Below, piece after piece: positions 7,854-23,703 of a stretch of 64,000 nt of DNA. The translations under genes and the position numbers were made by a program. The notes beneath the pieces were generated by a model, which made no database searches, was not told the origin of the DNA, and was given only the letters and a program-made list of their open reading frames with translations. The stretch is from Streptomyces lienomycini (GTDB taxonomy: Bacteria > Actinomycetota > Actinomycetes > Streptomycetales > Streptomycetaceae). Positions within the stretch are counted from its first letter, which is position 1, and every line of letters begins with the position of its first letter. Location of the stretch: positions 5,217,501 to 5,281,500 of the forward strand of contig NZ_CP116257.1 of NCBI RefSeq assembly GCF_027947595.1. The letters are read 5' to 3'.

Positions 7854-8459
7854 TCAGGTCGTGACGGGCCGGCGGCGGTCCGCCGCCTGGGCCATCGCGT
7901 GCTGGACGACACCGATGAGGACCTCCTTGACGGACTCCCGGTCCCGGGCGTCGCACATCACCAGGGGGACGCCGGCATCGAGATCGAGGGCCTGGCGGAC
8001 GGTCTCGGCCGGGTAGCGGGCCGATCCCTCGAAGCGGTTGACGCCCACCACGAACGGGATGGAGCGCCGCTCGAAGTAGTCGACGGCGGCGAAGCAGTCC
8101 TCGAGGCGCCGCGTGTCGGCGAGCACGACGGCACCCAGCGCGCCCTCGGACAGTTCGTCCCACATGAACCAGAACCGTTCCTGGCCGGGCGTACCGAAGA
8201 GGTACAGCACGAGATCCTCGCGCAGCGTGATCCGTCCGAAGTCCATGGCCACCGTGGTGGTGTGCTTGCCCTCGACGCCGCTGACGTCGTCGACGGGCCG
8301 CCCGGCCTCGGTGAGCAGTTCCTCGGTGCGCAGCGGCCTGATCTCGCTGACCGCGCCGACGAGGGTGGTCTTGCCCACCCCGAAGCCGCCGGCCACCAGG
8401 ATCTTCAGTGTGACGGGCTCGACCGGCGGCTTGCCGCGCTGAGAACGCCCGAAGATCAT
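7854..8459 (-). CDS. cvnD: Conservon Ras-like GTPase CvnD
   Basis: A 201-aa small GTPase, fourth member of a conservon, the actinomycete modules thought to work as a membrane-associated signalling complex resembling eukaryotic GPCR systems. The P-loop GGFGVGKTTLV lies near residue 24, LFGTPGQERF is the G3 switch II motif, and GVNRFEG takes the place of NKxD, as in other CvnD/MglA-like proteins. The start at 8459 is supported by AAGGAG upstream; there is a 46-bp gap from cvnC. It ends the operon and is followed by the vanX-like gene, also on the minus strand. Confidence 0.93.
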   Translation of the reverse strand: MIFGRSQRGKPPVEPVTLKILVAGGFGVGKTTLVGAVSEIRPLRTEELLTEAGRPVDDVSGVEGKHTTTVAMDFGRITLREDLVLYLFGTPGQERFWFMWDELSEGALGAVVLADTRRLEDCFAAVDYFERRSIPFVVGVNRFEGSARYPAETVRQALDLDAGVPLVMCDARDRESVKEVLIGVVQHAMAQAADRRRPVTT

Positions 8460-8505
8460 CGATCTCTTCTCCTTAACGTGCCGCCCGACGCGGCCGGGGG
8501 CCGGT

Positions 8506-8901
8506 TCACAGTGCCCTCAGTCCGTTGATCACGTCGCGCAGGATGTTCTCGTCCGGCAGTTCGGCCGGGGGTACGGGCCGGTTGACGTGGACGAGTTCGA
8601 TGTCCACGAGGTCGCCGACCAGGACGCGCACGACCCCGACGGGGAGGTCCAGTTCGGCGGCGAGTTCGGCGACGGACTGCGGGGTGTCCCGGCACAGGCC
8701 GACGATGTCGACGTGCTCCGGGGAGAGGGTGACGTCCGCCTCCGGGTCGTCCGCGTGGGGCTCCGTGACGACCACCGCGATCAGATCGAGGCGGTGCTGG
8801 GCCGCGCTGGTGGTGCGGCCGCGTGTCATGGCGTACGGACGGACGACGGGGCCGGCCTCGTCGTCGAACCAGTGGTTTCTTCCCTGACCGTCTGCGCTCA
8901 T
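8506..8901 (-). CDS. cvnC: Conservon protein CvnC (DUF742)
   Basis: A 131-aa DUF742 protein, the third conservon component, in which a winged-helix-like region (VDIVGLCRDTPQSVAELAAELDLPVGVVRVLVGDL) is evident in the second half. The family is thought to help tether the small GTPase; it is not a proven DNA-binding protein. The N-terminus GRNHWFDDEAGPVVRPYAMTRGRT is the conserved start of the family. It lies 10 bp after cvnB, consistent with one transcript. Confidence 0.93.
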   Translation of the reverse strand: MSADGQGRNHWFDDEAGPVVRPYAMTRGRTTSAAQHRLDLIAVVVTEPHADDPEADVTLSPEHVDIVGLCRDTPQSVAELAAELDLPVGVVRVLVGDLVDIELVHVNRPVPPAELPDENILRDVINGLRAL

Positions 8902-8911
8902 GTCATCCCAC

Positions 8912-9346
8912 TTACCCGCCCGAGGGCAGATCGGTGCGCGGAGCGGTGCCCAGGTGCACGCCGACCCGCTTCACGAGGAGGGTCATCTCGTACGCGACCT
9001 GCCCGACGTCCGAGTCGGCGTCCGACAGGACGGCCAGGCAGCTGCCGTCGCCGGCGGCGGTGACGAAGAGGAAGGCGTCGTCGAGTTCGACGACCGTCTG
9101 CCGGACGCTGCCCGCCTCGAAGTGCCGGCCCACGCCCTTGGCGAGGCTGTGGAATCCGGACGCCACGGCGGCCAGGTGTTCACTGTCCTCCCTGGTCAGG
9201 TCCTTGGACGCGCCCGTCGCCAGGCCGTCGCCGGACAGGACGACGGCCTTGTGGATGCTCGCGACACGGTCCACCAGGTCGTCGAGGAGCCAGTTCAGCT
9301 CCCCGGACTTGGTCGCGCTGTGGCCGGTCGTCTTCGGTGCGGTCAT
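8912..9346 (-). CDS. cvnB: Conservon roadblock/LC7 protein CvnB
   Basis: A 144-aa roadblock/LC7-domain protein, the presumed GTPase-activating partner of CvnD. The segment LNWLLDDLVDRVASIHKAVVLSGDGLATGAS is the diagnostic start of the fold. The ATG at 9346 overlaps the cvnA stop in an ATGA arrangement, implying translational coupling, and GGGGGAC lies upstream. A much longer open frame through cvnA in this phase is an antisense-like artefact of GC-rich sequence and is not part of the gene. Confidence 0.93.
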   Translation of the reverse strand: MTAPKTTGHSATKSGELNWLLDDLVDRVASIHKAVVLSGDGLATGASKDLTREDSEHLAAVASGFHSLAKGVGRHFEAGSVRQTVVELDDAFLFVTAAGDGSCLAVLSDADSDVGQVAYEMTLLVKRVGVHLGTAPRTDLPSGG

Positions 9347-12168
9347 CGACCGTCCCCCTTGTTCGTTCCTCGTGGTGCTGATGGTGCTGATGGTGCTGTG
9401 CCGTCGGGGTCGTCGTCGCTCACGGCGTTCTCCTCGCGGCCGCGCTGCCAGCCGCGCTGGAGCGACGCCATGCGGCTGCGCACTTCCTCGGCGTCGCGGT
9501 CGGCGGGGTCGGAGCGGTCCTCGGTGGCGGGGTCGGGGCTCTGCCTGAGCTGAGGGGCGAGGCTGGCCTGGCGTACGCGCCGGGGCAGCGCGCCGGCCTC
9601 GGCGTTCGCGGACGCGGCGTCCTCGCGCGCGGGGGACGCGTCCCGGCGCCGGGCGGGGAGGGACGGCAGGGCGTCGGGCTCCGTACGGTCGGCACCGCGC
9701 GTGTCGGCGTCGCGGGCTCTGTCGCCACCGCCACCGCCGCCTCCACCATCGCCATCGCCACCATCGCGGCTTTCGGCGGGAGCGTCGCCGGTGCGGGGCT
9801 CGCGGCGTCGGGCGGGCAGGGCAGGCAACTCGTCGGCACTGTCCCGGGCGGCCCGTTCGGGGACGGGGCGGCCGTGCGAGCTGACCAGCTTGGGCGTCCG
9901 GCGGCGGGGCAGCGCGACCGGTGCGTCCGCCCCGTTGCCGTCCTCGGTCGGCTCGTCGTCGCGACGGGGCGCCGGGCTTCGCCGGTCGGTGCGGCGGGCC
10001 GCCCGGTCGTCGTCGGCCGCGGCCAGTGAGCGGCGCGGCCGGAACAGGCCGCCGCGTTCGCTGTCCTGGTCGCCGAGCGAACCCGGCAGGCCGTCGAGGG
10101 CGTCCAGGTCGACGGGCGGCTCCAGTTCGACCGGCCCGTCCAGCAGCGGCGTGGCCGCCCGGTCCGGGAGCCGTGCGGGCACGTGGGAGAGGGCGGAACG
10201 GCGGTTGTCCTGCCGCTCCCTCCCCTTGGCGGGCTGGGGGCGGTCGAGGCGGAAGCCGACGCCGTTGGTGTCGGGGGCGTCGTCGGTGAGCAGCGCGTCG
10301 GGGACGAAGACGATCGCGGTGGTACCGCCGTAGGGAGAGGGCTGGAGGGAAACCCGGACGTTCTGCCGCTGGGCGAGCCGGCTGACGACGAACAGGCCGA
10401 GCCGGTCGGTGTCGGACAGCTCGAACTCGGGTGTTTCGGCCAGCCGGAGGTTGGCGTCGAGGAGGGCGTCGGCGGCCATGCCGAGGCCGCGGTCGTGGAT
10501 TTCGAGGGTGAAGCCGTTGGCGACGCGCTCGCCCAGGACCTGCACGGCGGTGTGCGGGGGTGAGAAGACCGTGGCGTTCTCCAGGAGTTCGGCCACGAGA
10601 TGGGTGAGGTCGGCGACCGCCGGTCCGGTGACGGCGATGCGCGGCAGCCTGCGGACCTCGATGCGCTCGTAGTCCTCGACCTCGGCGACGGCGGCGCGTA
10701 CGACGTCCATGAGCTGCACGGGTTTGCGCCACTGCCGGGACGGCGCGGCGCCGGAGAGGATGACGAGGCCCTCCGCGTGCCGGCGCATGCGCGTGGTCAG
10801 GTGGTCCAGGCGGAACAGGTCGGCGAGTTCCTCGGTGTCCTCCGTCCTGCGCTCCATCGTGTCGAGCAGGGTGAGCTGCTTGTGCAGGAGTACCTGGCTG
10901 CGGCGCGCGAGGTTGACGAAGACCTCGGAGACACCGGCGCGCAGTTCGGCCTGTTTGACGGCGGCCTCCACGGCGGCCCGCTGGAGGGTGTTGAGTGCCT
11001 GGCCGACCTCGCCCATCTCGTTCTTGTCGTACTCCAGGCGCGGGACCTCGGTCTCCACGTCGACCTCTTCGCCCGCCGAAAGGCGGCGCATCACGCTGGG
11101 CAGGCGGACGCCGGACGCCTCGTGGGCCTCCAGGCGCAGTTGCTTGAGGTCGCGGATGAGGGAGCGGCCGACGCGCACGGACAGGAAGACGGAGTAGAGC
11201 AGGGCGATCAGACCCAGCGCTCCGGCGACGACCACCTTGGCGATGACGTTCGTGGCGACCGGGTCGACCCGGTCCTGGTAGCGGTCGGCAGCCTGGTCGT
11301 CGAGGTCGCCGAGTTCCTCCAGGGCACTGCCGGCGGCGGTGTCCCAGCTCTTGGCGGTGACGCCGTGCGGCGGGCCGGGCTCGGCGGAGACGGCGGCCTG
11401 TTCCGCGGATCGCAGCGGAGCGGAGGAGGCGTTCTTCCAGAAGCGCTGGTAGCGGCCGCGTTCGGCGGAGGGCAGCAACGGCAGGTTGATGTCGTACATC
11501 ATGGTGCGCTGCGCCACGAGGTCGGAGACGTCGCGTATCTCGGTCCGGGTCAGCCGGCCGGTGACCAGGGCGGAGCCCAGGAGGGCGTCCTCGCGGGAGA
11601 GCAGTTCGCGGGCGCGGGAGACGTTGACGAGCGCGCGGTACTGCTTGTCCAGGCCCACGTTGTCGACGACCTCGAGGTTGGCGAGCAGTTCGTGGCAGGG
11701 GTCGACCAGGCGGTTGTAGAGGACGAGGGCCTGCGCGCGGTCCACGGTGCCGTCCCCGACGCTGCGGCGCAGGGAGCCGATGCCGTCGAGGGCGTCCAGG
11801 ACGGCGGTGAGCCGTTCGTCCCCGGCCCGGCCGAGGTCGTCCCGCACGTCGGCGTCGGCGGCGTTGCGGCGGACCTCGGCGACCGCCTCGTCGGTGGCGG
11901 TGCGGCTGCGCTGCAGGGCGGCGAGTCCGTCCGAGGCGCGCGGGTCGGCGAGGTGGACGAGGGTCTGGCGGCGTTCCTGCTGGAGGACGCGGACGGTGTC
12001 CTCGACCGGGTAGCCGACCTTCTCGACCACGGTCGAGACGCTGAACAGCCGTCCCGCCTCACGCCCCGTCAGTACCGTGGCGAACGCCCAGATCGCGGTC
12101 AGGGACACCAGCGGCACGAGAAGCAGCGCCACGATCTTCCGGCGGATCGACTTCCCGCGAAAGCGCAT
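9343..12168 (-). CDS. cvnA: Conservon sensor histidine kinase-like protein CvnA
   Basis: A 941-aa membrane sensor that starts the cvnABCD operon. Order: transmembrane segment near residues 12-34 (IVALLLVPLVSLTAIWAFA), an extracellular nitrate/nitrite-sensing type domain to about 315, a second membrane segment (VVVAGALGLIALLYSVFLSV), a HAMP-like linker, then a GHKL ATPase domain with the N-box LVAELLENATVFSPP and DRGLGM. The last 300 residues are a low-complexity, charged tail with a Gly tract and repeated LPALPARRR-like motifs, probably disordered. The start at 12168 follows GGGGGAGG. The module has no cvnE/P450 gene. Signal unknown. Confidence 0.93.
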   Translation of the reverse strand: MRFRGKSIRRKIVALLLVPLVSLTAIWAFATVLTGREAGRLFSVSTVVEKVGYPVEDTVRVLQQERRQTLVHLADPRASDGLAALQRSRTATDEAVAEVRRNAADADVRDDLGRAGDERLTAVLDALDGIGSLRRSVGDGTVDRAQALVLYNRLVDPCHELLANLEVVDNVGLDKQYRALVNVSRARELLSREDALLGSALVTGRLTRTEIRDVSDLVAQRTMMYDINLPLLPSAERGRYQRFWKNASSAPLRSAEQAAVSAEPGPPHGVTAKSWDTAAGSALEELGDLDDQAADRYQDRVDPVATNVIAKVVVAGALGLIALLYSVFLSVRVGRSLIRDLKQLRLEAHEASGVRLPSVMRRLSAGEEVDVETEVPRLEYDKNEMGEVGQALNTLQRAAVEAAVKQAELRAGVSEVFVNLARRSQVLLHKQLTLLDTMERRTEDTEELADLFRLDHLTTRMRRHAEGLVILSGAAPSRQWRKPVQLMDVVRAAVAEVEDYERIEVRRLPRIAVTGPAVADLTHLVAELLENATVFSPPHTAVQVLGERVANGFTLEIHDRGLGMAADALLDANLRLAETPEFELSDTDRLGLFVVSRLAQRQNVRVSLQPSPYGGTTAIVFVPDALLTDDAPDTNGVGFRLDRPQPAKGRERQDNRRSALSHVPARLPDRAATPLLDGPVELEPPVDLDALDGLPGSLGDQDSERGGLFRPRRSLAAADDDRAARRTDRRSPAPRRDDEPTEDGNGADAPVALPRRRTPKLVSSHGRPVPERAARDSADELPALPARRREPRTGDAPAESRDGGDGDGGGGGGGGDRARDADTRGADRTEPDALPSLPARRRDASPAREDAASANAEAGALPRRVRQASLAPQLRQSPDPATEDRSDPADRDAEEVRSRMASLQRGWQRGREENAVSDDDPDGTAPSAPSAPRGTNKGDGR

Positions 12169-12586
12169 GGCCTCCCCCAGCTCGACCCCCACCGGCGGGG
12201 GTACACATGTGCGTCAACAAACGGCGCGAGCCTACTACTGACGCACAGGTAACTCGAAGACCCGCCCGGAGGCCGAACCTCCGCCACGTGGGTGCGCGAT
12301 GGTCAGTTGTCCCGTCATTACGGGAGATTGCCTCCCGGGATCCGTGGGGGGACGGGAGGGAGCCCGCCGGTCGTGACGGGCGGATTGGCCGAAATTCTTC
12401 GACTGCGCGGGATTTTCGGGAATCTTGGGGCCTGGTCGTTCGTCCTTCACTACGGGAAACGGAGGCGGAATCGGCCACAGGAGCCGCATCCCGCCCCCGG
12501 GCGGCGTAAAGCAGCGCAAGCCGGGCAGCCAGAGGGGAGCCGTGTCGTGGGACACGGACGAGTGTCTGCCGGCGGTGGGGAGTGAC
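12169..12586. other. Intergenic region upstream of cvnA and a divergent membrane protein gene
   Basis: About 420 bp without a supportable gene. It should hold the cvnA promoter (leftward) and the promoter of the two-TM protein gene (rightward). The clearest structure is an inverted repeat with 9-bp arms at 12208-12216 and 12239-12247 (TGTGCGTCA / TGACGCACA), reported separately. No convincing consensus -35/-10 pair was identified. Confidence 0.6.
12208..12247. repeat. Inverted repeat upstream of cvnA
   Basis: Perfect 9-bp arms, TGTGCGTCA at 12208-12216 and TGACGCACA at 12239-12247, separated by 22 bp (about two helical turns between arms). It lies about 40-80 bp upstream of the cvnA start codon, a position suitable for a dimeric operator or two half-sites. 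No regulator is assigned. Confidence 0.5.
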
Positions 12587-13171
12587 ATGGTGATGGGCAC
12601 GGCGGAGCGGCGCAGGGCGCCCGAGGAGGACCCCGCGGACGGGGCGACGGTCCGATCGGCCTCCGGAGCACGTGGTCGCGGCGTTCCCGCGGCCGGGCAG
12701 GACACGCCGGCACGTGAACACGCGGCGGACGAGGGGCGGGAGAGGCCGCACGCCCCGGCGGCGCGTGAGCGGCCGCCCGGCTACCGGCCGCTGTGGACGG
12801 AGGAGCCCGCGCGGCGCCGTCGGCTGCCGGACCCGGTGCGTACGGCCGCGGTGCGGGCGATACTCGTCGTCGCCGTGACGTTGATCATGGCGATGGTCGC
12901 CTTCCTGAGCACGCTGGCCGAGTCGTGGCTGGCGTTCCCGATGGTGGTCGGCAGTGTGGCGGGCACGGTGGTGGCCACCTGGGGCGTGCTGGACGTCTGG
13001 GTGACGCGCCAGGTGTGGAACCAGCGGCACGGTGTGGTCTCTGCGCCGAGCAGCACGGCGCGGGCCATGCGGCGCGAGCGTCGCCGGGCCAGGCGGCAGG
13101 CGCGGTCCGCGGAGCGCGGCCAGGAGCGGATACGCAGGCAGGGCGGCGCGGGCCGGCTGTCGCACTCCTGA
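12587..13171 (+). CDS. Unrecognised two-TM membrane protein
   Basis: A 194-aa protein of unknown function. Residues 1-85 are polar and Arg/Pro-rich; two hydrophobic segments follow (AVRAILVVAVTLIMAMVAFLS and LAFPMVVGSVAGTVVATWGVL), then a strongly basic C-terminal tail (MRRERRRARRQARSAERGQERIRR). The start at 12587 was chosen because GGGGAG lies 5 bp upstream; GTG at 12542 is an alternative with a badly spaced site. Divergent from the conservon and convergent with the SMC-like cassette. The basic tail would face the cytoplasm in a two-helix hairpin. Confidence 0.75.
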   Translation: MVMGTAERRRAPEEDPADGATVRSASGARGRGVPAAGQDTPAREHAADEGRERPHAPAARERPPGYRPLWTEEPARRRRLPDPVRTAAVRAILVVAVTLIMAMVAFLSTLAESWLAFPMVVGSVAGTVVATWGVLDVWVTRQVWNQRHGVVSAPSSTARAMRRERRRARRQARSAERGQERIRRQGGAGRLSHS

Positions 13172-13301: not shown

Positions 13302-16300
13302 TCAGGCGGGCGTCTGGGCGGGCCGCTTGTACATACGGGTCGCTGTGATCTCGCTGTGCACCGCGTCGCCCTCCCCCTCGGCGCCCGGCGTCGGCTGGGG
13401 CAGTCCCGGCCTCAGGTGCTCCTCCACGCTGATGTACTTCAGTCCGGCCCTGAGGTCGGCGTCGTTGCGCAGCCGGATGACCAGCGGGAACTCGGCCAGG
13501 GCGGTCGTGTCGAACAGGCCCGTGGTGTACAGGAGCTGGACCCCGAGCGCGTCCGAGACGGCTCGCTGCAGCTCCAGCAGGTAGGTGGCGTTGGCACGGC
13601 CGATGGGGTTGTCGAGGAACAGCGTGCCGGCGTGGCGGTGCCGGTCACGGCCCCGGTCGTTGCTGCGCAGCGCCGCCATCGTGCAGTACAGGGCGATGGC
13701 GGCGGTGAGCAGCTGGCCGCCGGAGAAGACGTCGCCCATCTGTCCGACGGGGACGCGTTCGGCGCGCAGTACGGCGTCGGGCTTGAGGATCTCGACGGCG
13801 ACGCCCTTGGGCTGCAGGGCGGCGGCCACACCCCGCAGCAGGAGGGACATGCCGTCGCGGCGCAGGTCGGAGTTCTTCTTCACGGCCGCGCGGGTGGCCT
13901 CGTCGACGACCTCGCCGAGCCGCTCGGTGAGGGTGGCCTGGTCGGGCTCCTCGAAGCGGATCCGCAGGAACTCCTGACCGGACCACTCGCCGAGCCCTTC
14001 CGGCAGCCGGGAGAGCCGCTGGGCGGAGCGGAGCGTGGCCAGGGCGGACTCGACCAGGCCACGCAGCCGGTCCACGATCGAGTCGCGGTTGCGCTCCAGC
14101 TGGGCCAGCTCGTCGGTGAGGACGCGCAGCCGTGGGGCGAAGGCGTCCGCCCACTTGGCGGCGTGGTCGGGCAGCGCGGCGGCGGGAAGCTCGCGGATCT
14201 GCTGGCGGGCGGGGGTGCGGACCTGCTCGTAGCGGGTGGAGTTGGCGTGCCGGACGAGTACGTCGCTCGCCTCGCGTACGGCGGCCTCGGCGGCGGACAG
14301 GTCGGCGGCGCAGCCGCGCAGCGAACGGCGGGCCTCGGCGGCGGCCCGGCGGGCCTCCTCCAGGTCCCCGGCGTACGGCTCGGACTCCTCCGGCTCCTCC
14401 TCCGGAGCGGGTTCGCGCAGCAGGTCGCGGAGCATGGCGGCGATCTCGTCGAAGCCGCCGGCCGCGTCCTCGGCGGCGCGGTGCGCGTCGAGCAGTTCGG
14501 CATGGGCCTCACGGGCCCCGGTGAGCGCATCGGTGCGGGAGGCGAGTTCGGCGGTCGCCGTGCGCAGCAGCGTCTGGGCGTGCTCGGCGTCGCGCGGAAC
14601 GAGTTCGCCGGGGAGGTCGGTGTGGGTGTCGCCGTCCTCGGGCGCGTGCCGTTCGGCCTCGCCGCGCAGTCGGCCGAGCTGTTCGCTCGCGGTCGACATG
14701 CGGGTCTCCAGGAGCTGCACCAGCTCCTCGGCGCGGGCGGCGGCGGCCTGCCGGGAGGGCCCGTCGGAACCGTCGGGCGACTCCAGGAGCTGCCCGGCCC
14801 GGGTGCGGACCTTGTTGCTGAGCCGGTCCAGCTCCGCGCGGGCGGCGCTCTCGTCGCTCTCCGCACGGGCCTGTTCGGCGCGCAGGTCGGCGCCGACGCC
14901 GACCTTCTCGTACAGCTGGGAGGCGGCGCGGTAGGCCTCGCGGAGGTCGGGCAGGGACACCCTGACGGTTCCCTTGCCGCTGCGGGGGGTGTCCCCGGTT
15001 CCGTCTCCGGTTCCGGCTTCTGTTCCGTCTCCGGTCTCGTCCTCGGGTACGTCGTCGGGGGCGCCGGCGATCTCGGAGCGTTCGGCTCGCAGTGCGCGGG
15101 CGGTGCGGCGGGCGTCGTCGGCGGCGCGCTGGGCGGCACGCCGGTCCTCGTCGGCGGCGCGGGCCCGCTCCAGACAGGCCTGGGCGCGGGCCTCGGCCTC
15201 GGCGCCCTCGTCCGCGAGTTCACGGACCCTGACCTGCCAGCCGGCGCGTTCGCGCAGCCGGAAGGCGAGTCCGGCGAGGGCGTCGGCGGCGCGGCGGGCC
15301 TTCTGCGCGGCCTCCTGCCGCTCGTCCCGCAGGTGAACGGTCTCGGCGGCGCTCTCGTCGGCATCGGCCCGTGCGGTGCGCGCCTCGGTCAGCTCGGCCT
15401 CGGCCTCCTCGGCGAAGGCGCGGGCCTCCTCGGCGGTCCGGGCCAACTCCGCCAGGCGCCCGGCGGGGCAGCCGGTGCGCCAGGAGGCAAGCCTCGCCGC
15501 CAGCTCCCGGTCCTTGCCGAGCCGGGCGGCGAGGGTGCGGATCTCCTCGTCCCGTTCTCCCGCCCGTGCGCGCAGCGCGTGCCGCTCCTCGTCGGCGGCG
15601 TGCTCGTCGTGCATCGCCGGGTTCGGCGGTACGAGGAAGACGTCGCCGGTGTCGGCCGACTCGGCGGCCGGGGTCGGTGCGAGGAGAGCGGCGGCCGTGC
15701 CGACGGCGACGGCGGAGCGCGGCAGCAGGGCGGCGTCGCCGAGGACCTCGCGGGCGCGGATGTGGGAGTCCGGGTCGGTGATGATGACGCCGTCGACCAG
15801 CTCGGGGCGGGCGGACAGCACGCGCGCGTGGTCGGCGGGGTCGACGGCCTGGGCCAGGTATCGCCAGCCGGGCAGGGCCGGGATGCCGTGTTCGCCGAGG
15901 AACTCGACCGTGGCCAGCACGTCCGGTCCCGGGGGCAGCAGTCCGCCGTCGCCGAGCGCGCCGAGGATGCGGGAGTCGTCGGCCGCGGCGGTGCGCAGTT
16001 CGAACAGTTGGCGTTCTGCGGCGGAGACGGTGTCTTCGAGCAGTTCGCGCAGTTCGTCGGCGAAGCGGTCGAGTTCTTCGGGGGTCAGCGCGCCGTCCGG
16101 GGTCCTGGGGGCGGCGGTCCGGTCGTCCCGGTCCGTGTCCCGGCGGGGCTGGGGGATGCCGGGGCGGGTCTCGGCGGCCAGGCCGAGCAGGTCGGCGAGC
16201 CGTTCCTCCGCGGCCAGTGCCTCGGCGGTGCGCCGCTCGCCCTCGTGGGCGCGCTCGGCAGCGGTCGCCGCGTCCGCCGCGCGGGCGGCGGTCAGTTCGG

Positions 16301-18017
16301 CGCGGCTCTCGGCGGCGGCGGCCTCACGGGCGTGTTCGGTGGCCCGGCGGGCGGCCTCACGAGCGGTGTCCCAGGCGGCGACGGTCGTCTTCTCGGCGTC
16401 GCTGGCCGCGAGGGCGGCGCGGGCCGGGTCGGCGTCGGGCGCGCTGTCGTCCAGCCAGCCCACGCGGACGGCCTCGGCGGTCTCCTGCTCGACCTCGGTG
16501 AGGCGCTGGCGCAGGTGACCGGCCTCGCTGCGGGCCCGCTGCGCCTCGGTGGCGGCGCCGGTGGAGTCCCGGTGGGCGGCCTCGCTGACCTCCTGGAGGG
16601 CGGCGGACCTCTCCTCCTCCTCGTTGGCGTGGTGCTCGGCCTTCCCGGCGGCCGCGTGCAGAGCACGGACGAGGGCGACGGCGGCCTTGGCGCGGGCGGC
16701 GAGCGCGGGGGCCGCGTCCCGTTCGGCCTCCTGGATGGCGGCGGACACGCGGGTGACGCGGTCGGACGCGGCGCGGTGGCGCAGGACGGCCTCGGCGGCC
16801 TGCCAGGCGGCGTGCAGGGTGCGGGCGTCGGCCAGTTCGCGCTTCTGCGCGGCGGCCGACTTCTCGGCGCCGGTCAGGGCCAGCGAGGCGTGCCGGTAGG
16901 CGAGTTCGGCGGCGATGAGGCCGCTGCGGTCACGGGCGGACTCGGCGTGGGTGACGGCGTACGCGGCGGCCGTGACCCGCTGGGCGAGATCGCCCGCGCG
17001 GACCCGCTCCCGGGCACCGCGGGCGGAGAGCCGGCGGGCGAGGTTCCTGGTGCGGCGTTCGGCGGCGGTGTGGATGTCCCGCGCGCGGGTGCGCGCCTCG
17101 GCGGCCTCGACGATCTGGCCCAGGAGGTCCACGGACCCGGCGGTGAAGTCGCGTTCGGCGATCAGCTCGGCGCGGCGGCCCAGCTTGTTGCCGAAGCCGC
17201 CGACGAGGTCGGCGAGTCCGTCGGTGTCGCGGGTGTCGGTGACGGCCCGCAGCAGCAGGTCGGTGAAGTCGGAGTCCTTCTTGACCGCGAAGAGTCCGGC
17301 GGCCTCGCCCTCGTCGGCGTTCATCTCGCGCTGGTAGCGGAAGAGTTCCGGGTCGAGGCCGAGGTCGCCGAGGTGCTCGATCCAGCGGTCGTGGATCTCC
17401 TCCCAGTGCACCTCCAGATGCGGGTAGCCCTTGCCGGCCTCCGTCAGCGCGTCCCGGAATCCCTTCATGGTGCGCCGCCTGCCCTGTGCGCCGGAGGCGC
17501 CCTCGACGGGCGGGCGTACGGCGGTGGCCTCGGCGACCGGCAGGTTGTCCAGGGTCAGTCCGGGACCGGGTCGGAAGGAGTACCAGGCCTCGGCGAACTT
17601 GCGCGGGTCGCCGGAGACCTGCCGCCCGCGCCACTCGCTGACCTTGCCGACGACGACGCACTCGCCGGTCTGCACGTGCTGCCACTCCAGCGCCACGTGC
17701 CCGCAGTCGTCGGCGAGCAGGAACTTGCGCAGCACGCCGGAGCTGGCGCCGCCCAGGGTGTTGCGGTGGCCCGGCAGCATCACCGAGAAGATCAGCTTGA
17801 GCAGCACGGACTTGCCGCCGCCGTTCTCCAGGAACAGCACTCCGGCGGGTGCGGGCCGACGCGGTGGGCCGACCGGTTCCTCCTCGAAGAACTCCGCCTG
17901 CGTGGGCGCGGGGTCGGGCACGGGCTCGCCCACACCGCGCAGGTCAAGCACGGTGTCGGCGTAGCGTGCACCGGCGGGTCCGATGGAGTAGAGGCGGACC
18001 CGGGACAGCTCGTACAT
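13302..18017 (-). CDS. SMC/MukB-like (MksB/JetC-type) ATPase, large subunit
   Basis: A 1571-aa protein with the architecture of an SMC-type chromosome or plasmid-binding ATPase. Walker A is LENGGGKSVLLKL at residues about 63-75. A very long Ala/Glu/Arg-rich coiled coil fills about 280-1330, interrupted near 680-800 by a non-helical, hinge-like block (HGIPALPGWRYLAQAVDP, VDGVIITDPDSH). The ABC signature GDVFSGGQLLTAAIALY lies near 1430 and Walker B GTLFLDNPIGRAN near 1467. Walker B reads DNP where canonical SMC has DE. Size, motif order and partners fit MksB, JetC or the TIGR02680 group. It is the last gene of the cassette, 62 bp after the MksE-like gene. Subfamily is inference; the SMC-like fold is well supported. 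Confidence 0.85.
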   Translation of the reverse strand: MYELSRVRLYSIGPAGARYADTVLDLRGVGEPVPDPAPTQAEFFEEEPVGPPRRPAPAGVLFLENGGGKSVLLKLIFSVMLPGHRNTLGGASSGVLRKFLLADDCGHVALEWQHVQTGECVVVGKVSEWRGRQVSGDPRKFAEAWYSFRPGPGLTLDNLPVAEATAVRPPVEGASGAQGRRRTMKGFRDALTEAGKGYPHLEVHWEEIHDRWIEHLGDLGLDPELFRYQREMNADEGEAAGLFAVKKDSDFTDLLLRAVTDTRDTDGLADLVGGFGNKLGRRAELIAERDFTAGSVDLLGQIVEAAEARTRARDIHTAAERRTRNLARRLSARGARERVRAGDLAQRVTAAAYAVTHAESARDRSGLIAAELAYRHASLALTGAEKSAAAQKRELADARTLHAAWQAAEAVLRHRAASDRVTRVSAAIQEAERDAAPALAARAKAAVALVRALHAAAGKAEHHANEEEERSAALQEVSEAAHRDSTGAATEAQRARSEAGHLRQRLTEVEQETAEAVRVGWLDDSAPDADPARAALAASDAEKTTVAAWDTAREAARRATEHAREAAAAESRAELTAARAADAATAAERAHEGERRTAEALAAEERLADLLGLAAETRPGIPQPRRDTDRDDRTAAPRTPDGALTPEELDRFADELRELLEDTVSAAERQLFELRTAAADDSRILGALGDGGLLPPGPDVLATVEFLGEHGIPALPGWRYLAQAVDPADHARVLSARPELVDGVIITDPDSHIRAREVLGDAALLPRSAVAVGTAAALLAPTPAAESADTGDVFLVPPNPAMHDEHAADEERHALRARAGERDEEIRTLAARLGKDRELAARLASWRTGCPAGRLAELARTAEEARAFAEEAEAELTEARTARADADESAAETVHLRDERQEAAQKARRAADALAGLAFRLRERAGWQVRVRELADEGAEAEARAQACLERARAADEDRRAAQRAADDARRTARALRAERSEIAGAPDDVPEDETGDGTEAGTGDGTGDTPRSGKGTVRVSLPDLREAYRAASQLYEKVGVGADLRAEQARAESDESAARAELDRLSNKVRTRAGQLLESPDGSDGPSRQAAAARAEELVQLLETRMSTASEQLGRLRGEAERHAPEDGDTHTDLPGELVPRDAEHAQTLLRTATAELASRTDALTGAREAHAELLDAHRAAEDAAGGFDEIAAMLRDLLREPAPEEEPEESEPYAGDLEEARRAAAEARRSLRGCAADLSAAEAAVREASDVLVRHANSTRYEQVRTPARQQIRELPAAALPDHAAKWADAFAPRLRVLTDELAQLERNRDSIVDRLRGLVESALATLRSAQRLSRLPEGLGEWSGQEFLRIRFEEPDQATLTERLGEVVDEATRAAVKKNSDLRRDGMSLLLRGVAAALQPKGVAVEILKPDAVLRAERVPVGQMGDVFSGGQLLTAAIALYCTMAALRSNDRGRDRHRHAGTLFLDNPIGRANATYLLELQRAVSDALGVQLLYTTGLFDTTALAEFPLVIRLRNDADLRAGLKYISVEEHLRPGLPQPTPGAEGEGDAVHSEITATRMYKRPAQTPA

Positions 18018-18079
18018 GGCGGACTCTCGTAAGTCTTCGGGAAGTCGGGGACGTTCGGGTTCGGGGTTCGGGGCGGGCG

Positions 18080-18961
18080 TCAGGAGGAGTGGAAGGGGAG
18101 GCCCGCGTCGGCGACCAGGTCCAGGTCGTCCGTCTCCTCGGCGGGCAGCAGGGTGGCGGTGCCGTCGGTGACCGGGACGACGCCCAGGTCGAGCAGCTCG
18201 GCCAGGGCGGCGCTGCCCGCCATGTCGCGCACCTGGAGCTGGTAGCGGGCCGTCGTGCGGTAGGTGCCGCCGTTGTCGTCGCCGGTGCGCTGGAGGAAGC
18301 CGGACTCGGTGAGGAACGCGGCGGCCTTGCCGACGATGCCGGTGGTGGAGCCGGGGAGTCTGCGCGCGTCCTTGGTGGCGCCGGTCGCGCTGCGCCGCAC
18401 CCAGATCCGCCAGGCGGCCTCCAGGCCCGGTGCATCGGTGGCCGGGTCGGTGTTCTCGCCCTGCTGCTCGGCCCGTTCCTCCAGTCTCCGGCAGGCCTGG
18501 CGGACGAAGGCGTCCACGCCGTTGACCGTGACGCGGCCGATGTAGCCGTCGTCGGCGAGGTCCTCGGGGCGCGGGTAGGCCATGGCGGCCACGGCGAGGT
18601 GGGCGAGGCCGTGCAGGAAGCGGTCGCCGGAGTCGGTGGCGGCGCGACGCGCGTAGTCGCCCATGCGGACGGCGAACACCGAGTCCTCGGCGGCGGTCAC
18701 GGCCATCCCCGCGCGCGGGGACACCTCCAGGACGATCAGCCCGAGGCCGGCTGCCACGGCGTCGGCGAGCCGTGCGAAGGGCGGGTCCTCCCGGTAGCGG
18801 CGGAGCAGGTCGGCGTACTCCTGGTCGCGGGCGGGCAGCAGCTTGGGCTGGAGGCCGAAGGCGACGAGCCGCGCCGCGTCGGCGGCGTCGGCGGGCGTGA
18901 CGGCCGCGGTGGCCGGCGCGGCGCCCGCCCCGGGTTCGCTCCGGTCGACGTGGTCGGTCAC
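18080..18961 (-). CDS. MukE/MksE-like (KITE-type) subunit of the SMC-like cassette
   Basis: A 293-aa cytosolic protein with no motif I can assign by itself. Its size, its place between a kleisin-like and an SMC-like gene, and the C-terminal winged-helix-like part (IVGKAAAFLTESGFLQRTGDDNGGTYRTTARYQLQVRDMAG) fit a MukE/MksE/JetB-type winged-helix partner that bridges kleisin and ATPase. GTG at 18961 follows GAGGAG at good spacing and overlaps the stop of a 29-codon mini-ORF. The product name rests on gene context, so it should be treated as inference. Confidence 0.7.
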   Translation of the reverse strand: MTDHVDRSEPGAGAAPATAAVTPADAADAARLVAFGLQPKLLPARDQEYADLLRRYREDPPFARLADAVAAGLGLIVLEVSPRAGMAVTAAEDSVFAVRMGDYARRAATDSGDRFLHGLAHLAVAAMAYPRPEDLADDGYIGRVTVNGVDAFVRQACRRLEERAEQQGENTDPATDAPGLEAAWRIWVRRSATGATKDARRLPGSTTGIVGKAAAFLTESGFLQRTGDDNGGTYRTTARYQLQVRDMAGSAALAELLDLGVVPVTDGTATLLPAEETDDLDLVADAGLPFHSS

Positions 18962-19047
18962 GGTCGGTTCTCCTCGAGGTGCTGTGGCGCGAAGTCGTGC
19001 TGCGGCGCGAGGCCGGGGTGGCGGGTGAGGGGGCGCGGGCCGGTCAT
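18958..19047 (-). CDS. 29-aa mini-ORF bridging the MksF- and MksE-like genes
   Basis: Encodes MTGPRPLTRHPGLAPQHDFA and nine more residues ending in NRP. Its ATG overlaps the TGA of the upstream MksF-like gene (ATGA) and its TGA overlaps the GTG of the downstream MksE-like gene (GTGA), so the three frames form an unbroken translational relay with no untranslated gap. Third positions are almost all G or C. The ribosome site of the next gene (GAGGAG) lies inside it. It may be a coupling leader and not a functional peptide. Confidence 0.45.
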   Translation of the reverse strand: MTGPRPLTRHPGLAPQHDFAPQHLEENRP

Positions 19048-20570
19048 GCCGCCTCCGTCCGGTCGGCGGCCATCCCCGCCGCGTCCAGCAGTGCCGTGCC
19101 GACGATGAGGTCGGCGCCGCCGAACCCGGGGTCGTCCAGCTCGGTGCCGTCGTCCACGGCGAAGAGCAGCTTCGGCTCGCCCTGGCGGTAGGCGGTGCCG
19201 ACCGGAGGGCTGGCCGCGTGGACGGCGAGCAGGGCGACGAGATAGGGCAGTTCGGCGTCACGGGCGCGGGCGTCGGCGAGCAGCCCCGACAGCCGGCGCG
19301 GGGCATCGTGCGGCAGGTCTAGCAGCTCCATGGCGGCGGCGAGCTGCTCCTCGCTGAAACGGCTGTCGTCCGGGGTGGCGATCAGGTCGGGCTCCGGCAT
19401 CTCGGCGCCCAGGTGCTCCCGTTCGACCGGCGGGGTCAGGAGAATGTCGACGAGGTCGCCGACCCGGACGGAGACGGGGGTGCGCAGCCCGGTGCCGCGG
19501 GCGAAGAAGGCGTCGGTGACGCGGAGCGCCTGTTCCAGGGGCAGTGGGAGCACGGGGGCCACGAGGTGGCCGTACAGGTCGAGGCCGGAGGTCGTCAGGG
19601 GGGTGGCGAAGGCCTGCCGGTCCTGTTCGGCGCGGAAGAGCGGGCCGGCTTCCAGGAGGCGGGACTGGAGCTGGGTGTGGCGGCGGATGCAGTCCTTGAC
19701 GATGTCGACCAGTTCGGCGGCGCGGCGCTTGTGCTCGGCGTCCTCGGTCTCGTCGCGGGCCTTGCGGATGTTGGTGAGGATCGCGTTCTCGTGCCGGTAC
19801 CGGTCGGCGACGTGGTCCAGGGCTTCGGCGATCATGTCGGGGACGGCGCTGAGCCAGTCCACCGCGCGCACGTTGCGCCGGGTGGCGTCCAGGGCGCGGC
19901 GCAGGGTCTCGGAGTACTGCACGGTCCGGTACCGGGCCTGTTCGGCGGCGAGCTGGGCGTCGGCGAGGCGGCCGCGGTTGATCAGCACCTCGAGTTTGAC
20001 CTCGGCGGCGATCTGGGCGCTGGTGACGTCGGTGTCCAGGGCGCCGACGAGGACGTTGACGGCCTCGTCGGTGGTGCGCAGGTAGACGGTGCCGCCGGGA
20101 CCGGGCACCTCTTCGAGCAGCTTGAAGTCGTAGTCGCGGCGCACGTAGGTGCCGTCCGGTCCGAAGGTGCCGTACACCGCGCGGAAGCCGCGGTCGACGC
20201 TGCCGACGTTGATCAGGTTCTCCAGGACCCAGCGGGCCACCCGCTCGTGCTCGGCGGCGGGGCGGCGCGGGGCCTGGGCGGCGACGCGGGGGATCAGTCT
20301 GGCCACTATCTGGTCGTGGTCGGCGCCGGTGTCGAAGTCCATGTTCAGCGTGACGAGGTCGATGGCGGCGAGGGCGACTTCGGCCATGCCGTAGACCGAG
20401 TACTCACCCGCGAGGTTGGCCTTGCGGGCATCGAGGTCGTGCAGCGGCGCCGTGCAGGCGAGCGCGCGCAGCCGCCGCGCCAGTCCCTCGTCGGCGGCCG
20501 GGCCCGGGGCGGGGCGCGGCCCCGCGCTGAGCTGGGGCGGAACGCTGTCCGTCGATGCAGGCGAAGTCAC
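19044..20570 (-). CDS. MukF/MksF-like (kleisin-type) subunit of the SMC-like cassette
   Basis: A 508-aa protein starting the cassette. The N-terminal half is helical with winged-helix character (ERVARWVLENLINVGSVDRGF, YVRRDYDFKLLEEVPG, YLRTTDEAVNVLVGAL). A long helical stretch follows near residues 190-320 (AQLAAEQARYRTVQYSETLRRAL, DKVADRY-type heptads, AELVDIVKDCIRRHTQLQSRLLEAGPLFRAE), and the C-terminal part is mixed. This resembles MukF/MksF/JetA kleisins. GTG at 20570 lacks a Shine-Dalgarno sequence but has a TAGTCT -10-like hexamer 7 nt upstream, suggesting a leaderless mRNA; ATG at 20600 is the alternative. Family assignment is from architecture and neighbours. Confidence 0.72.
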   Translation of the reverse strand: MTSPASTDSVPPQLSAGPRPAPGPAADEGLARRLRALACTAPLHDLDARKANLAGEYSVYGMAEVALAAIDLVTLNMDFDTGADHDQIVARLIPRVAAQAPRRPAAEHERVARWVLENLINVGSVDRGFRAVYGTFGPDGTYVRRDYDFKLLEEVPGPGGTVYLRTTDEAVNVLVGALDTDVTSAQIAAEVKLEVLINRGRLADAQLAAEQARYRTVQYSETLRRALDATRRNVRAVDWLSAVPDMIAEALDHVADRYRHENAILTNIRKARDETEDAEHKRRAAELVDIVKDCIRRHTQLQSRLLEAGPLFRAEQDRQAFATPLTTSGLDLYGHLVAPVLPLPLEQALRVTDAFFARGTGLRTPVSVRVGDLVDILLTPPVEREHLGAEMPEPDLIATPDDSRFSEEQLAAAMELLDLPHDAPRRLSGLLADARARDAELPYLVALLAVHAASPPVGTAYRQGEPKLLFAVDDGTELDDPGFGGADLIVGTALLDAAGMAADRTEAA

Positions 20571-20577
20571 GGTGCAC

Positions 20578-20608
20578 AGACTAGGTCCTCGGTCTGACAT
20601 CGGCCCAA
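20578..20608 (-). promoter_or_regulatory. Candidate leaderless promoter of the SMC-like cassette
   Basis: Read on the minus strand: TTGGGC at 20608-20603, a 19-bp spacer, then TAGTCT at 20583-20578, followed by 7 nt and GTG at 20570. Transcription would begin at or next to the start codon. The spacer is 1-2 bp long for a housekeeping promoter, so this is tentative. Confidence 0.35.
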
Positions 20609-20663
20609 ACGACGCAGACGGGCCCCTCGGCGACACGGTGGCCGGCCGCCGTGCGGCCCTGGC

Positions 20664-21359
20664 CTACCCCTCGTCCCCGACCCGCCGCAGGTAGACCTCC
20701 ACGACGCGTTCGAGCGAGTCGTCGAGGTAGACCGCGAGCAGTCGCGCCGCCGCTTCCCGCTCGCCGTTCTCCAGAGTCGCGAGGAGCTCCGCGTTCCGTG
20801 CGATGTAGGGCTCGTGCAGGCGCCGGGGATCGTCCACGACGTGGAAGGCGAGGCGCAGTTCGGCGAAGACGCTGCGCATCAGTTCGTCGGTGCGTTCACT
20901 GCCGGCCAGGGCGACCAGTTCCCGGTGGAAGTGGATGTTGGCCGTGCCCACGGTTTTCCAGTCACCTTCGCGAGCCGCCCGCCGCCCCTCGTCGACGGCC
21001 TCGGAGAGACCGTCCAGCGTGTACGGCGGGTCGCCGAGGCCCCGGACGACGGCGCACTCGACGAGAGAGCGGGTCCGGTAGATGTCCTCGACGTCCTCGA
21101 CGGTGAGCACCCGCACGAAGACGCCGCGGTTCAGTTCGTGGACGAGCAGGCGTTCGTGCGTGAGCAGCCGGAACGACTCGCGCAGGGTGTTGCGGGAGAC
21201 GCCGAGCGCGCCACCGATGCTGTCCTCCGACAAACGGGTCCCCGGTGGGAAGTAGCCCTCGGCGATCCGGCTCCTGAGGATGTCCGAGACGCGCTCCGCG
21301 GTACTGGTCCGCCCGAGGAGGGCGCGGTCGTCGGCCAGTCCCGTCAACTGCTCTGCCAT
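20664..21359 (-). CDS. GntR-family regulator, FadR/FCD subfamily
   Basis: A 231-aa transcription factor. The N-terminal winged helix is visible (RVSDILRSRIAEGYFPPGTRLSEDSIGGALGVSRNTLRESFRLLTHERLL), followed by an all-helical FCD ligand domain with the metal/ligand His and Arg pattern (DIYRTRSLVECAVV, FHRELVALAGSERTDELM, HEPYIARNAELLATLENGE). It is divergent from an MFS-DUF1445 operon across about 165 bp that contains a 19-bp palindrome, so it probably represses that operon and itself. The ligand is likely a small carboxylate, by analogy with the subfamily. Confidence 0.93.
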   Translation of the reverse strand: MAEQLTGLADDRALLGRTSTAERVSDILRSRIAEGYFPPGTRLSEDSIGGALGVSRNTLRESFRLLTHERLLVHELNRGVFVRVLTVEDVEDIYRTRSLVECAVVRGLGDPPYTLDGLSEAVDEGRRAAREGDWKTVGTANIHFHRELVALAGSERTDELMRSVFAELRLAFHVVDDPRRLHEPYIARNAELLATLENGEREAAARLLAVYLDDSLERVVEVYLRRVGDEG

Positions 21360-21407
21360 GCCCGGAATTCAATCGCAGATATCAGAACGAAACAACAGGG
21401 GTATTGA

Positions 21408-21426
21408 GGGATCGTTCAACGATCCC
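21408..21426. promoter_or_regulatory. Palindromic operator candidate for the GntR regulator
   Basis: GGGATCGTT and AACGATCCC flank a central C, a perfect 19-bp palindrome in the divergent GntR/MFS spacer, 49 bp upstream of the GntR start and 98 bp upstream of the MFS start. The GTT-N-AAC core is common in FCD-type GntR operators. Confidence 0.6.
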
Positions 21427-21523
21427 CTACGGTGCCACCAAGCGCCACTCGCCGTACCGCTCGACGTACCGCTTGGCGTTCCGCTCGACCAGCACCCTCC
21501 GTCCTCCCACTGCGAGGTGCACC

Positions 21524-22846
21524 ATGAGCACTCCCCCTCCCCCTCAGGCCCCGACCGCCGGTGCCCCTCCGTCGGGCGCGGGTGAACACCCCGCGAACGA
21601 CGGTCCGTTCGGCTGGCTGCGGGCTCTCGGTCCGCGAGGCCGCCGCGCCTTCGGCGGCGCGTTCGGCGGTTACGCCCTCGACTCGTACGACTACTTCACC
21701 CTGCCGCTGACCATGGTCGCGCTGGCCGCCTACTTCGGTCTGGACAGCGGCCAGACCGGCTTGCTGACGACGGTGACCCTGGTCGTCTCGGCGATCGGCG
21801 GCGCCCTCGCGGGTGTCCTGGCGGACCGGATCGGCCGGGTCAAGGCACTGCTGCTCACCGTGATCACCTACGCCGTGTTCACCGTGGCCTGCGGCTTCGC
21901 GCCCAACTACGAGACGCTGCTCGTCTTCCGCGCCCTTCAGGGTCTCGGCTTCGGCGGCGAGTGGGCGGTCGGCGCCGTCCTGGTCGCCGAGTACGCGAGC
22001 GCCAGGCACCGGGGGCGCACGCTCGGCGCGGTCCAGAGCTCCTGGGCCGTGGGCTGGGCCCTCGCGGTGGTCGTGTACACGCTGGTGTTCTCACTGGTCG
22101 GCGACGATCTGGCCTGGCGTGTCATGTTCTGGACGGGCGCGCTCCCGGCGCTGCTCGTGGTGTGGGTGCGGCGCAGCGTGCACGACGCGCCCAGGGCCGC
22201 CGAGGCCCGTGAGAAGGGTGCGGGCAAGGGCTCGTTCGCCGCGATCTTCGAGCCGGGCACGGCGGACTCACCGGGCCTGTTGCGCGTCACGCTCTTCGCG
22301 AGCCTGCTCTCCACCGGGGTCCAGGGCGGCTACTACACCCTGGCCACCTGGGTGCCGACGTATCTCAAGGACGAGCGCGACCTGTCGGTCGTCGGCACCG
22401 GCGGTTACCTGACGTTCCTCATCTCGGGCGCGTTCCTCGGCTACCTCACCGGCGGTCATCTCACCGATCTGCTGGGCCGCAGGCGCAACATCTGGCTCTT
22501 CGCGCTGCTGTCGGCGGTCTGCATCCTGGCGTACGCGAACATCCCGAGCGGCGCCGACGCCCTGCTCCTGGTGCTCGGTTTCCCGCTCGGCTTCTGCATG
22601 TCGGCGATCTTCAGCGGATTCGGTTCGTATCTGAGCGAGCTGTACCCGACGGCGGTACGGGGCGCGGGCCAGGGGTTCACGTACAACACCGGACGCGCCG
22701 TGGGCGCCGTCTTCCCGACCACGGTCGGCTTCCTCGCCGACAGCTGGGGCGTGGGCGGCGCGCTGGTCTTCGGCGCCATCGGCTACGGCATCGCGGCGCT
22801 GGCTCTGCTGTGGCTGCCGGAGACGCGCGGAAGGGAACTGGCATGA
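21524..22846 (+). CDS. MFS transporter, sialate/aromatic-acid type
   Basis: A 440-aa major facilitator with about twelve membrane segments. The loop 2-3 signature is [12 protein letters not shown] (A-D-R-x-G-R) and a second copy in the C-half is [14 protein letters not shown]. The N-terminal 40 residues are Pro/Ala-rich. The general pattern ([42 protein letters not shown]) resembles metabolite:H+ symporters of the MhpT/ShiA/NanT type, so an organic acid is the likely substrate. ATG at 21524 follows GAGG. It overlaps the downstream DUF1445 gene in an ATGA arrangement, so the two proteins probably serve one pathway. Confidence 0.9.
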
Positions 22847-23703
22847 ACCACCTGAACCACCCGATGCACATGAATCCCCCGCGGCACTCGACCGGGGACC
22901 GGCCACTCGCCCTCGTCGACGAGCACGCGCACGCGTGGAGCCCGAAAGCGGCCCGTTCCCGATTCCGGGAGGGCCTGACCGGACCCACGGCAGGCGTCGC
23001 GGCCGACCACACCCAGGCCAACCTGATCTCGGTGCCCGCCGACTGGGCGTACGACATGCTGCTGTTCTGCACCCGCAACCCGCAGCCCTGCCCGGTGCTC
23101 GACGTCACGGACGCCGGGTCCTGGACCACGGTGCTCGCCGACGGCGCGGACCTGCGCACCGATCTGCCGCGCTACCGGGTGTGGCGGGACGGCGAGCTGG
23201 TGGACGAGCCGACGGACGTGCGGGCGCGCTGGCGGGACGACCTGGTGACGTTCCTGCTCGGCTGCAGCTTCACCTTCGAGTGGGCGCTCGCTGCGGCGGG
23301 CGTCCCGATCCGCCATGTCGAGCAGGGCCGCAACGTCCCGATGTACGTCACCTCGCGCGAGTGCCGTCCGGCCGGGCGGTTGCACGGGCCGATGGTGGTG
23401 TCGATGCGTCCCGTGCCGCCCGCGCACCTGTCGGCGGCGATCCGCGAGAGCGGGCTGCTCCCGGCGGTGCACGGCAGTCCGGTGCACTGCGGCGATCCGT
23501 CGGCACTGGGCATCGACGACCTCGACCGGCCGGACTTCGGCGACGCGGTGGAGCGCGAGCCGGACGACATCCCCGTCTTCTGGGCCTGCGGTGTGACCCC
23601 GCAGGCGGCGGTCATGGCCTCGCGGCCGCCTTTCGCCCTCACCCACGCGCCGGGCCAGATGTTCCTCACCGACGCCCGTGACGAGCAGTACCGCGTGGGG
23701 TGA
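22843..23703 (+). CDS. DUF1445 putative hydro-lyase (D-glutamate cyclase-like)
   Basis: A 286-aa protein of the DUF1445 family, annotated as putative hydro-lyase and related to the mitochondrial D-glutamate cyclase domain. Typical family segments are [69 protein letters not shown] and [16 protein letters not shown]. Family members normally start at a segment equivalent to [13 protein letters not shown], here near residue 33, so the His-rich extension [16 protein letters not shown] may be an added N-terminus or a start upstream of the true one. Translation is coupled to the transporter by ATGA. The substrate is likely what the transporter imports. Confidence 0.87.

Follow-up and report, generated by a model that had tools for sequence, protein, structure and literature searches.

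The 64 kb stretch of the Streptomyces lienomycini genome analysed here, called the window in the following, carries on its minus strand three successive open reading frames (ORFs), jetA, jetB and jetC. A first-pass annotation, made from the letters alone, had read them as a three-gene Muk/Mks/Wadjet-like SMC set on one strand, with which the coordinates and lengths of the ORFs agree (Table 1). Since the three proteins are kept in hundreds of genomes, the ORFs are not chance ones. The comparisons described below support the assignment of the trio, by sequence, to the JetABC part of a Wadjet type III system that is without JetD. In Wadjet systems JetABC extrudes DNA and JetD cuts it upon completed extrusion, according to the accessible parts of two reports (PMC10586767, PMC12647877).

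The assignment to type III comes from the PADLOC profiles. JetA matches JetA3 (PDLC00567) with an E value of 8.2e-187, and JetC matches JetC3 (PDLC00588) with an E value of 0 and a second profile, PDLC00589, with 4.7e-237 in an alignment spanning residues 1-1563. JetB gave no PADLOC match, and neither did the JetB of the JetD-bearing locus L032, with which it shares 43% identity. For the IFDR motif of type I JetB, described in the accessible part of a review (PMC10586767), no counterpart was evident by eye in either the JetD-less or the JetD-bearing group. The first-pass annotation had called the two smaller proteins kleisin-like and winged-helix-like and had named kleisin and MukE as the folds to look for; among predicted folds the best match is MukF (kleisin) for JetA and MukE/JetB (KITE) for JetB. 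Pfam and NCBIfam contained nothing informative for any of the three proteins: up to an E value of 1 the sole Pfam listing for JetA was LemA, under the LemA cut-off, and JetC matched no Pfam family. Searches of the PDB sequences with JetA, JetC and a JetA alignment yielded no relevant match; an alignment of JetD3, the type III JetD, matched MksG (8b7f, E 4.5e-4). Of the components of a Wadjet type III system the trio thus has JetA3, JetC3 and a KITE-type JetB, and JetD is found neither linked to it nor in the genome. As a kleisin/KITE/SMC set of three genes without nuclease it also corresponds in make-up to the MksBEF type. JetA is not a ScpA-type kleisin; the genome's single match to PF02616 (ScpA) lies away from the trio (C1:5606925-5607587).

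The ATPase motifs that the first-pass annotation had placed at the two ends of JetC, an N-terminal Walker A and a C-terminal SGGQ with Walker B, were located as NGGGKS, FSGGQ and LFLDNP (Table 1). The nine of 79 JetC copies that have neither FSGGQ nor LDNPIG either end at a contig edge (eight copies) or are split into two ORFs (L133). The Asn following the Walker B Asp is also present in JetC of JetD-bearing type III sets (L032, L077) and therefore is no sign of decay. The long coiled coil with a hinge-like break, likewise noted there, agrees with a crude composition count, in which residues ~641-800 form a break richer in proline and glycine within a long stretch rich in residues of the coiled-coil type.

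The S. lienomycini genome is complete (7.86 Mb, one contig). It contains no match to PF09983, PF09664, PDLC00590 or to JetD3 alignments of 3 and of 14 sequences. PF09983 matched a control and type III JetD genes, and both JetD3 alignments matched JetD in other genomes searched; PF09664 and PDLC00590 matched no control genome, so that their silence is weak evidence of absence. The profile of the 14-sequence alignment, which recovered JetD in 20/20 positive control loci, found none in the window or in any of 113 orthologous loci, 101 from Streptomyces (a 21-locus and an 80-locus set) and 12 from Frankiaceae; two pairs share a contig, leaving 111 distinct loci. The first-pass annotation had offered two explanations for the missing nuclease. 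That it is encoded elsewhere is disfavoured by the empty JetD-family searches of the complete genome; the other explanation, an orphan condensin in addition to the usual SMC-ScpAB, agrees better with the data, ScpA being encoded elsewhere in the genome. A linked nuclease in related genomes had been named as the finding that would speak against the proposal: the JetD profile matches nothing in the 113 orthologous loci, and a linked JetD occurs only in separate second copies.

These second copies are patchy. The 3-sequence JetD3 alignment matches 28 of 295 Streptomyces genomes, five of them weakly (E 2e-6 to 6e-4), and 261 of the 289 JetA-bearing genomes of the genus are without a match. When the two surveys, whose 295-genome samples were taken as the same set because the genomes listed in them agree, are combined, 21 genomes have both JetD3 and a second JetA, four only at least two JetA matches, seven only JetD (all five weak matches are among them) and 263 neither. 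The co-occurrence (Fisher p 2e-22) is indicative, the genomes being related, the table counted by eye and some double JetA matches possibly being split genes. In each of the 20 loci with strong JetD matches that were inspected, JetD is accompanied by other jet genes belonging to a second set. Eighteen have JetA, JetB and JetC beside JetD, although in L112 and L117 jetC consists of two ORFs; in L115 JetB and JetC stand beside JetD at a contig edge. In genome G182 (L076/L113) JetD is accompanied only by the end of JetC, which makes this a broken second Wadjet III. The 14-sequence alignment matched 12 of 80 further genomes, namely our own, 19 trio-bearing Frankiaceae and 60 of 93 family genomes from other genera. 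In the nine strongest cases the starts of JetD and of a non-core JetA are ~6.6-6.9 kb apart, and JetB and JetC occupy the space between them. The JetD of G172 is partial and adjoins another type of JetC, and the matches in G596 and G532 are fragments. Two side observations concern JetD-bearing genomes. In G388 two equal-scoring JetD genes lie near both chromosome ends (C1:66621-67607 and 8038782-8039768), as expected if a Wadjet III copy is located in terminal inverted repeats. In G243 a 1060-amino acid ORF (L077:4256-7438, plus strand), by eye like an SbcC/Rad50-type ATPase, stands beside the JetD of the second set.

The nuclease-less trio, in contrast to these copies, is near-universal at a common locus. 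Across the class, 34 of 246 genomes have a JetA match (22 Streptomyces, 11 Frankiaceae and one doubtful match). Within Streptomyces JetA is present in 289 of 295 genomes (286 of the 288 of good quality), and within Streptomycetaceae in 120 of 121, representing 17/17 genera. For JetA of the core type the counts are 119/121 family genomes and 16/17 genera, the difference being due to G547; the only JetA match of this genome (L233) belongs to a JetD-bearing Wadjet III copy. jetA, jetB and jetC lie together in all 21 loci of the 21-locus set.

The genes are under strong constraint. In the 80-locus set, all members of which are close relatives (JetA 92-99% identical) and 14 of which are shorter than 17.5 kb, the median ratio of non-synonymous to synonymous substitutions (dN/dS) against the window was 0.068 for JetA (80/80 loci), 0.135 for JetB (79/80) and 0.149 for JetC (79/80). 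JetC is a single full-length ORF in 69/80 loci; a contig edge truncates eight copies, one locus stops short of jetC, and two (L133 and L209) have a jetC broken up into several ORFs by a real frameshift or a sequencing error.

Also conserved is a putative promoter block, some 44 bases long, immediately upstream of the GTG of jetA. In the 74 of 80 loci compared (six were dropped, jetA lying elsewhere in the locus) the block is strongly conserved and the DNA farther upstream is not. Its TAGTCT could be a -10 element, from which a leaderless jetA mRNA would follow. A 29-base part of the block matches 18 of the 21 Streptomyces loci with 0-8 mismatches, where shuffled sequences reached a minimum of 10-13; it did not rise above shuffles in L064-L066, in seven Frankiaceae loci and in four JetD-bearing copies. 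The block also carries the inverted arms CAGAC/GTCTG. A 20-base element of it was considered as a regulon marker and rejected: the own genome has one exact site and one with three mismatches, no more than the two found with the reversed control.

The direction of change was read from trees. In a JetA-only tree of 54 rows (L075, L076 and L113 left out; L074 left out for JetB) the JetD-less copies form one clade (support 99/96). In a tree of concatenated JetA, JetB and JetC with 63 rows, which included additional JetD-bearing relatives and from which L075, L076, L077, L113, L115, L231, L234 and L235 were left out as duplicates or partial sets, the Streptomyces and the Frankiaceae copies each form one clade (100/100), nested among JetD-bearing copies. 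A JetD-bearing clade of seven stands beside the Frankiaceae copies with a support of 56.5/75, or of 85/83 when 33 of the 63 rows were used. In this 33-row tree, in which two rows are less than half filled and several are of unusual composition, the constraint of a single JetD-less clade was not rejected (p-AU 0.18). Because the JetD-less clades nest among JetD-bearing ones, loss of JetD is the simplest direction, and these trees are most simply explained if it was lost once or twice.

Table 1. Features of the JetABC locus (window coordinates, unless a locus is named)
Feature	Position	Strand	Remark
jetA	19044..20570	-	kleisin subunit, 508 aa, GTG start, Wadjet type III JetA family
jetB	18080..18961	-	KITE (MukE/JetB-like) subunit, 293 aa, GTG start
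jetC	13302..18017	-	SMC ATPase subunit, 1571 aa, Wadjet type III JetC family
JetC Walker A NGGGKS, residues 65-70	17808..17825	-	kept in 78/79 JetC copies (80-locus set)
JetC ABC signature FSGGQ, residues 1431-1435	13713..13727	-	kept in 70/79 copies
JetC Walker B LFLDNP, residues 1466-1471	13605..13622	-	LDNPIG in 70/79 copies
Putative promoter block before jetA	20571..20614	-	conserved in 74 loci
Putative -10 TAGTCT	20578-20583	-	within the block
GntR/FCD regulator	20664-21359		neighbour of jetA
Protein without Pfam match	12539-13171	+	two transmembrane segments read by eye; neighbour of jetC
TerD-domain gene, Frankiaceae example	L068:7118-7705	-	equivalents in 12 Frankiaceae loci

The two flanking genes had been named correctly from the letters, the GntR regulator being confirmed by Pfam and the two transmembrane segments of the other protein by eye. 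The GntR/FCD gene stands beside genes for a major facilitator superfamily (MFS) transporter and a D-glutamate cyclase-family protein (20664-23703), apparently an unrelated metabolic unit; owing to this company we do not count it with the trio. Beyond jetC the minus strand encodes a sensor kinase-like protein (NIT, HATPase_c), a DUF742 protein and an ATP/GTP-binding protein (7854-12192), a cluster which, with its roadblock-type gene at 8912-9340, we take to be a conservon. A suspected identity with the S. coelicolor cvn9/rar operon was dropped, since the published tat genes SCO1632-1633 adjoin that operon. The two-transmembrane gene and conservon genes are found beyond jetC in 17 of the 21 Streptomyces loci, and a GntR gene on the jetA side in 16, the fetched stretch being short on one side in some loci. 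Measured in contig coordinates from the nearer end, the trio lies 33% inwards in our genome; for seven relatives the value is 8 to 18%. The neighbourhood in Frankiaceae is a different one: each of the 12 loci opened has a TerD gene upstream of jetA and divergent from it, a ParE-like gene is close by, and the other conserved ORFs near the trio have no Pfam match.

We consider it probable, judging from these sequence comparisons, that the trio is a Wadjet III JetABC motor that lost JetD and was retained to serve the chromosome as an additional condensin that does not cut: near-fixation and constraint argue for a housekeeping role, and the host's retention of ScpA would make the trio a second condensin. 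As in the family, JetC would dimerize via its hinge, and JetA and JetB would bind the SMC heads. The complex would extrude DNA loops with ATP as the JetABC of Wadjet does, and without JetD the extrusion would have no cleavage outcome. The motor could then help SMC-ScpAB to compact or segregate the large linear chromosome, with multigenomic hyphae and sporulation as plausible settings. A wider version of this proposal we regard as evenly balanced: an overlooked second condensin throughout the Streptomycetaceae, derived from Wadjet III by losing the nuclease once or twice (Streptomycetaceae and Frankiaceae), which would work on the linear chromosomes of multigenomic hyphae and might make up in part for a missing SMC.

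Several observations weigh against the condensin proposal. The JetD-less complexes show no specific loss of the columns that JetD-bearing ones conserve (none at a strict setting and two at a looser one). Column loss amounted to 10 to 120 in five control clades and to 13 and 6 in the two JetD-less clades; a lost JetD-docking surface, looked for in these columns, was not found. Some partner may therefore still dock on JetABC. Two of the 288 good-quality Streptomyces genomes are without a JetA match (G315 and G389, each in more than 1000 contigs), and among Frankiaceae only 19 of 35 genomes have the trio's JetA (12 of these 19 loci were opened). In this family JetD could act in trans, since a PF09983 nuclease lies away from the trio in 6 of 11 trio-bearing genomes and JetD3 is matched in 5 of 19. 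A survey of actinobacterial defence systems reports, in its accessible text, that Wadjet is enriched towards the ends of Streptomyces chromosomes (PMC10482375); presumably its rules require JetD and hence omit the trio. Finally, two papers on SMC in Streptomyces name no such complex in the text available. A literature search, which did not cover preprints or most papers behind a subscription, yielded no paper recognizable as describing a Wadjet without JetD in this genus.

Alternatively, the trio could be a defence system that needs no nuclease: JetABC would sense small circular DNA by extruding it completely and would silence, sequester or mis-segregate it instead of cutting. Motor and conserved columns are as in the JetD-bearing relatives, the JetABC family is a defence family, and the accessible part of a review (PMC10586767) discusses anti-viral immunity by Smc5/6 and, as one mode that may operate, the compacting of circular DNA. 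Near-universal presence and strong constraint, unlike the patchy distribution of the JetD-bearing copies (28/295), make us think this unlikely.

Less likely still is a Wadjet whose nuclease is unrecognizable or comes from an unlinked gene of another family. The conserved columns could still serve such a partner, two of the nuclease models used (PF09664 and PDLC00590) are those that matched no control genome, some Frankiaceae genomes have the unlinked PF09983 nucleases mentioned above, and some of their conserved neighbour ORFs match no Pfam family. On the other side, the JetD-family searches of the own genome were empty, no JetD was near the 113 orthologous loci, and none of the neighbours that could be identified is a nuclease (in the window they are GntR, sensor kinase, DUF742 and GTPase-type proteins, in Frankiaceae TerD and ParE-like ones). 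That the trio is a Wadjet remnant decaying after the loss of JetD is hardly credible: JetD is absent, JetC is split in 2 of 80 core loci and a true remnant does exist in G182, but the near-universal JetA, the three genes kept together as full-length ORFs in most loci, the low dN/dS values and the conserved promoter block show that the trio is not decaying.

If the trio is indeed a non-cutting condensin, it would be a second case of an SMC machine for plasmid defence that turned housekeeping, this time in the Wadjet type III lineage, and it would be near-fixed in a model bacterial family in which SMC deletion and Hi-C are already used. The data suggest the conversion of an immune system into an additional machine that organizes the chromosome, and they make JetABC a candidate redundant factor to be considered in the interpretation of Streptomyces smc mutants. 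The step from defence to condensin is directly testable, since 21 of the 295 Streptomyces genomes have, in addition to the trio, another JetA and a JetD.

With Wadjet type III the trio shares, besides its JetA and JetC profile matches, the order jetA-jetB-jetC, and second copies within the same genus consist of these three genes plus JetD3; it differs in that JetD is missing both from the locus and from the genome, and in being near-universal at a common locus, where JetD-bearing copies are patchy. It resembles MukBEF in its predicted kleisin and KITE folds, which match MukF and MukE entries, and differs in that its JetC matches no Pfam family (E up to 1) and its host retains ScpA.

The nearest precedent is the MksBEF complex of Pseudomonas aeruginosa, which according to the accessible part of a review (PMC10586767) is likely a JetABCD that lacks JetD and takes part in organizing and segregating the chromosome. 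It is also encoded by three genes without a nuclease, and the trio's host, too, has a ScpA kleisin. The trio differs from it in belonging by profile to the type III JetA and JetC families; its loss of JetD would then be separate from that of MksBEF, of which our trees contained no sequence. In Borrelia burgdorferi, as described in the available text of PMC10406323, an Mks-type SMC protein, MksB, likewise works on a linear chromosome beside Smc and promotes long-range contacts there; Borrelia is without MksE and MksF, whereas the trio of Streptomyces is complete.

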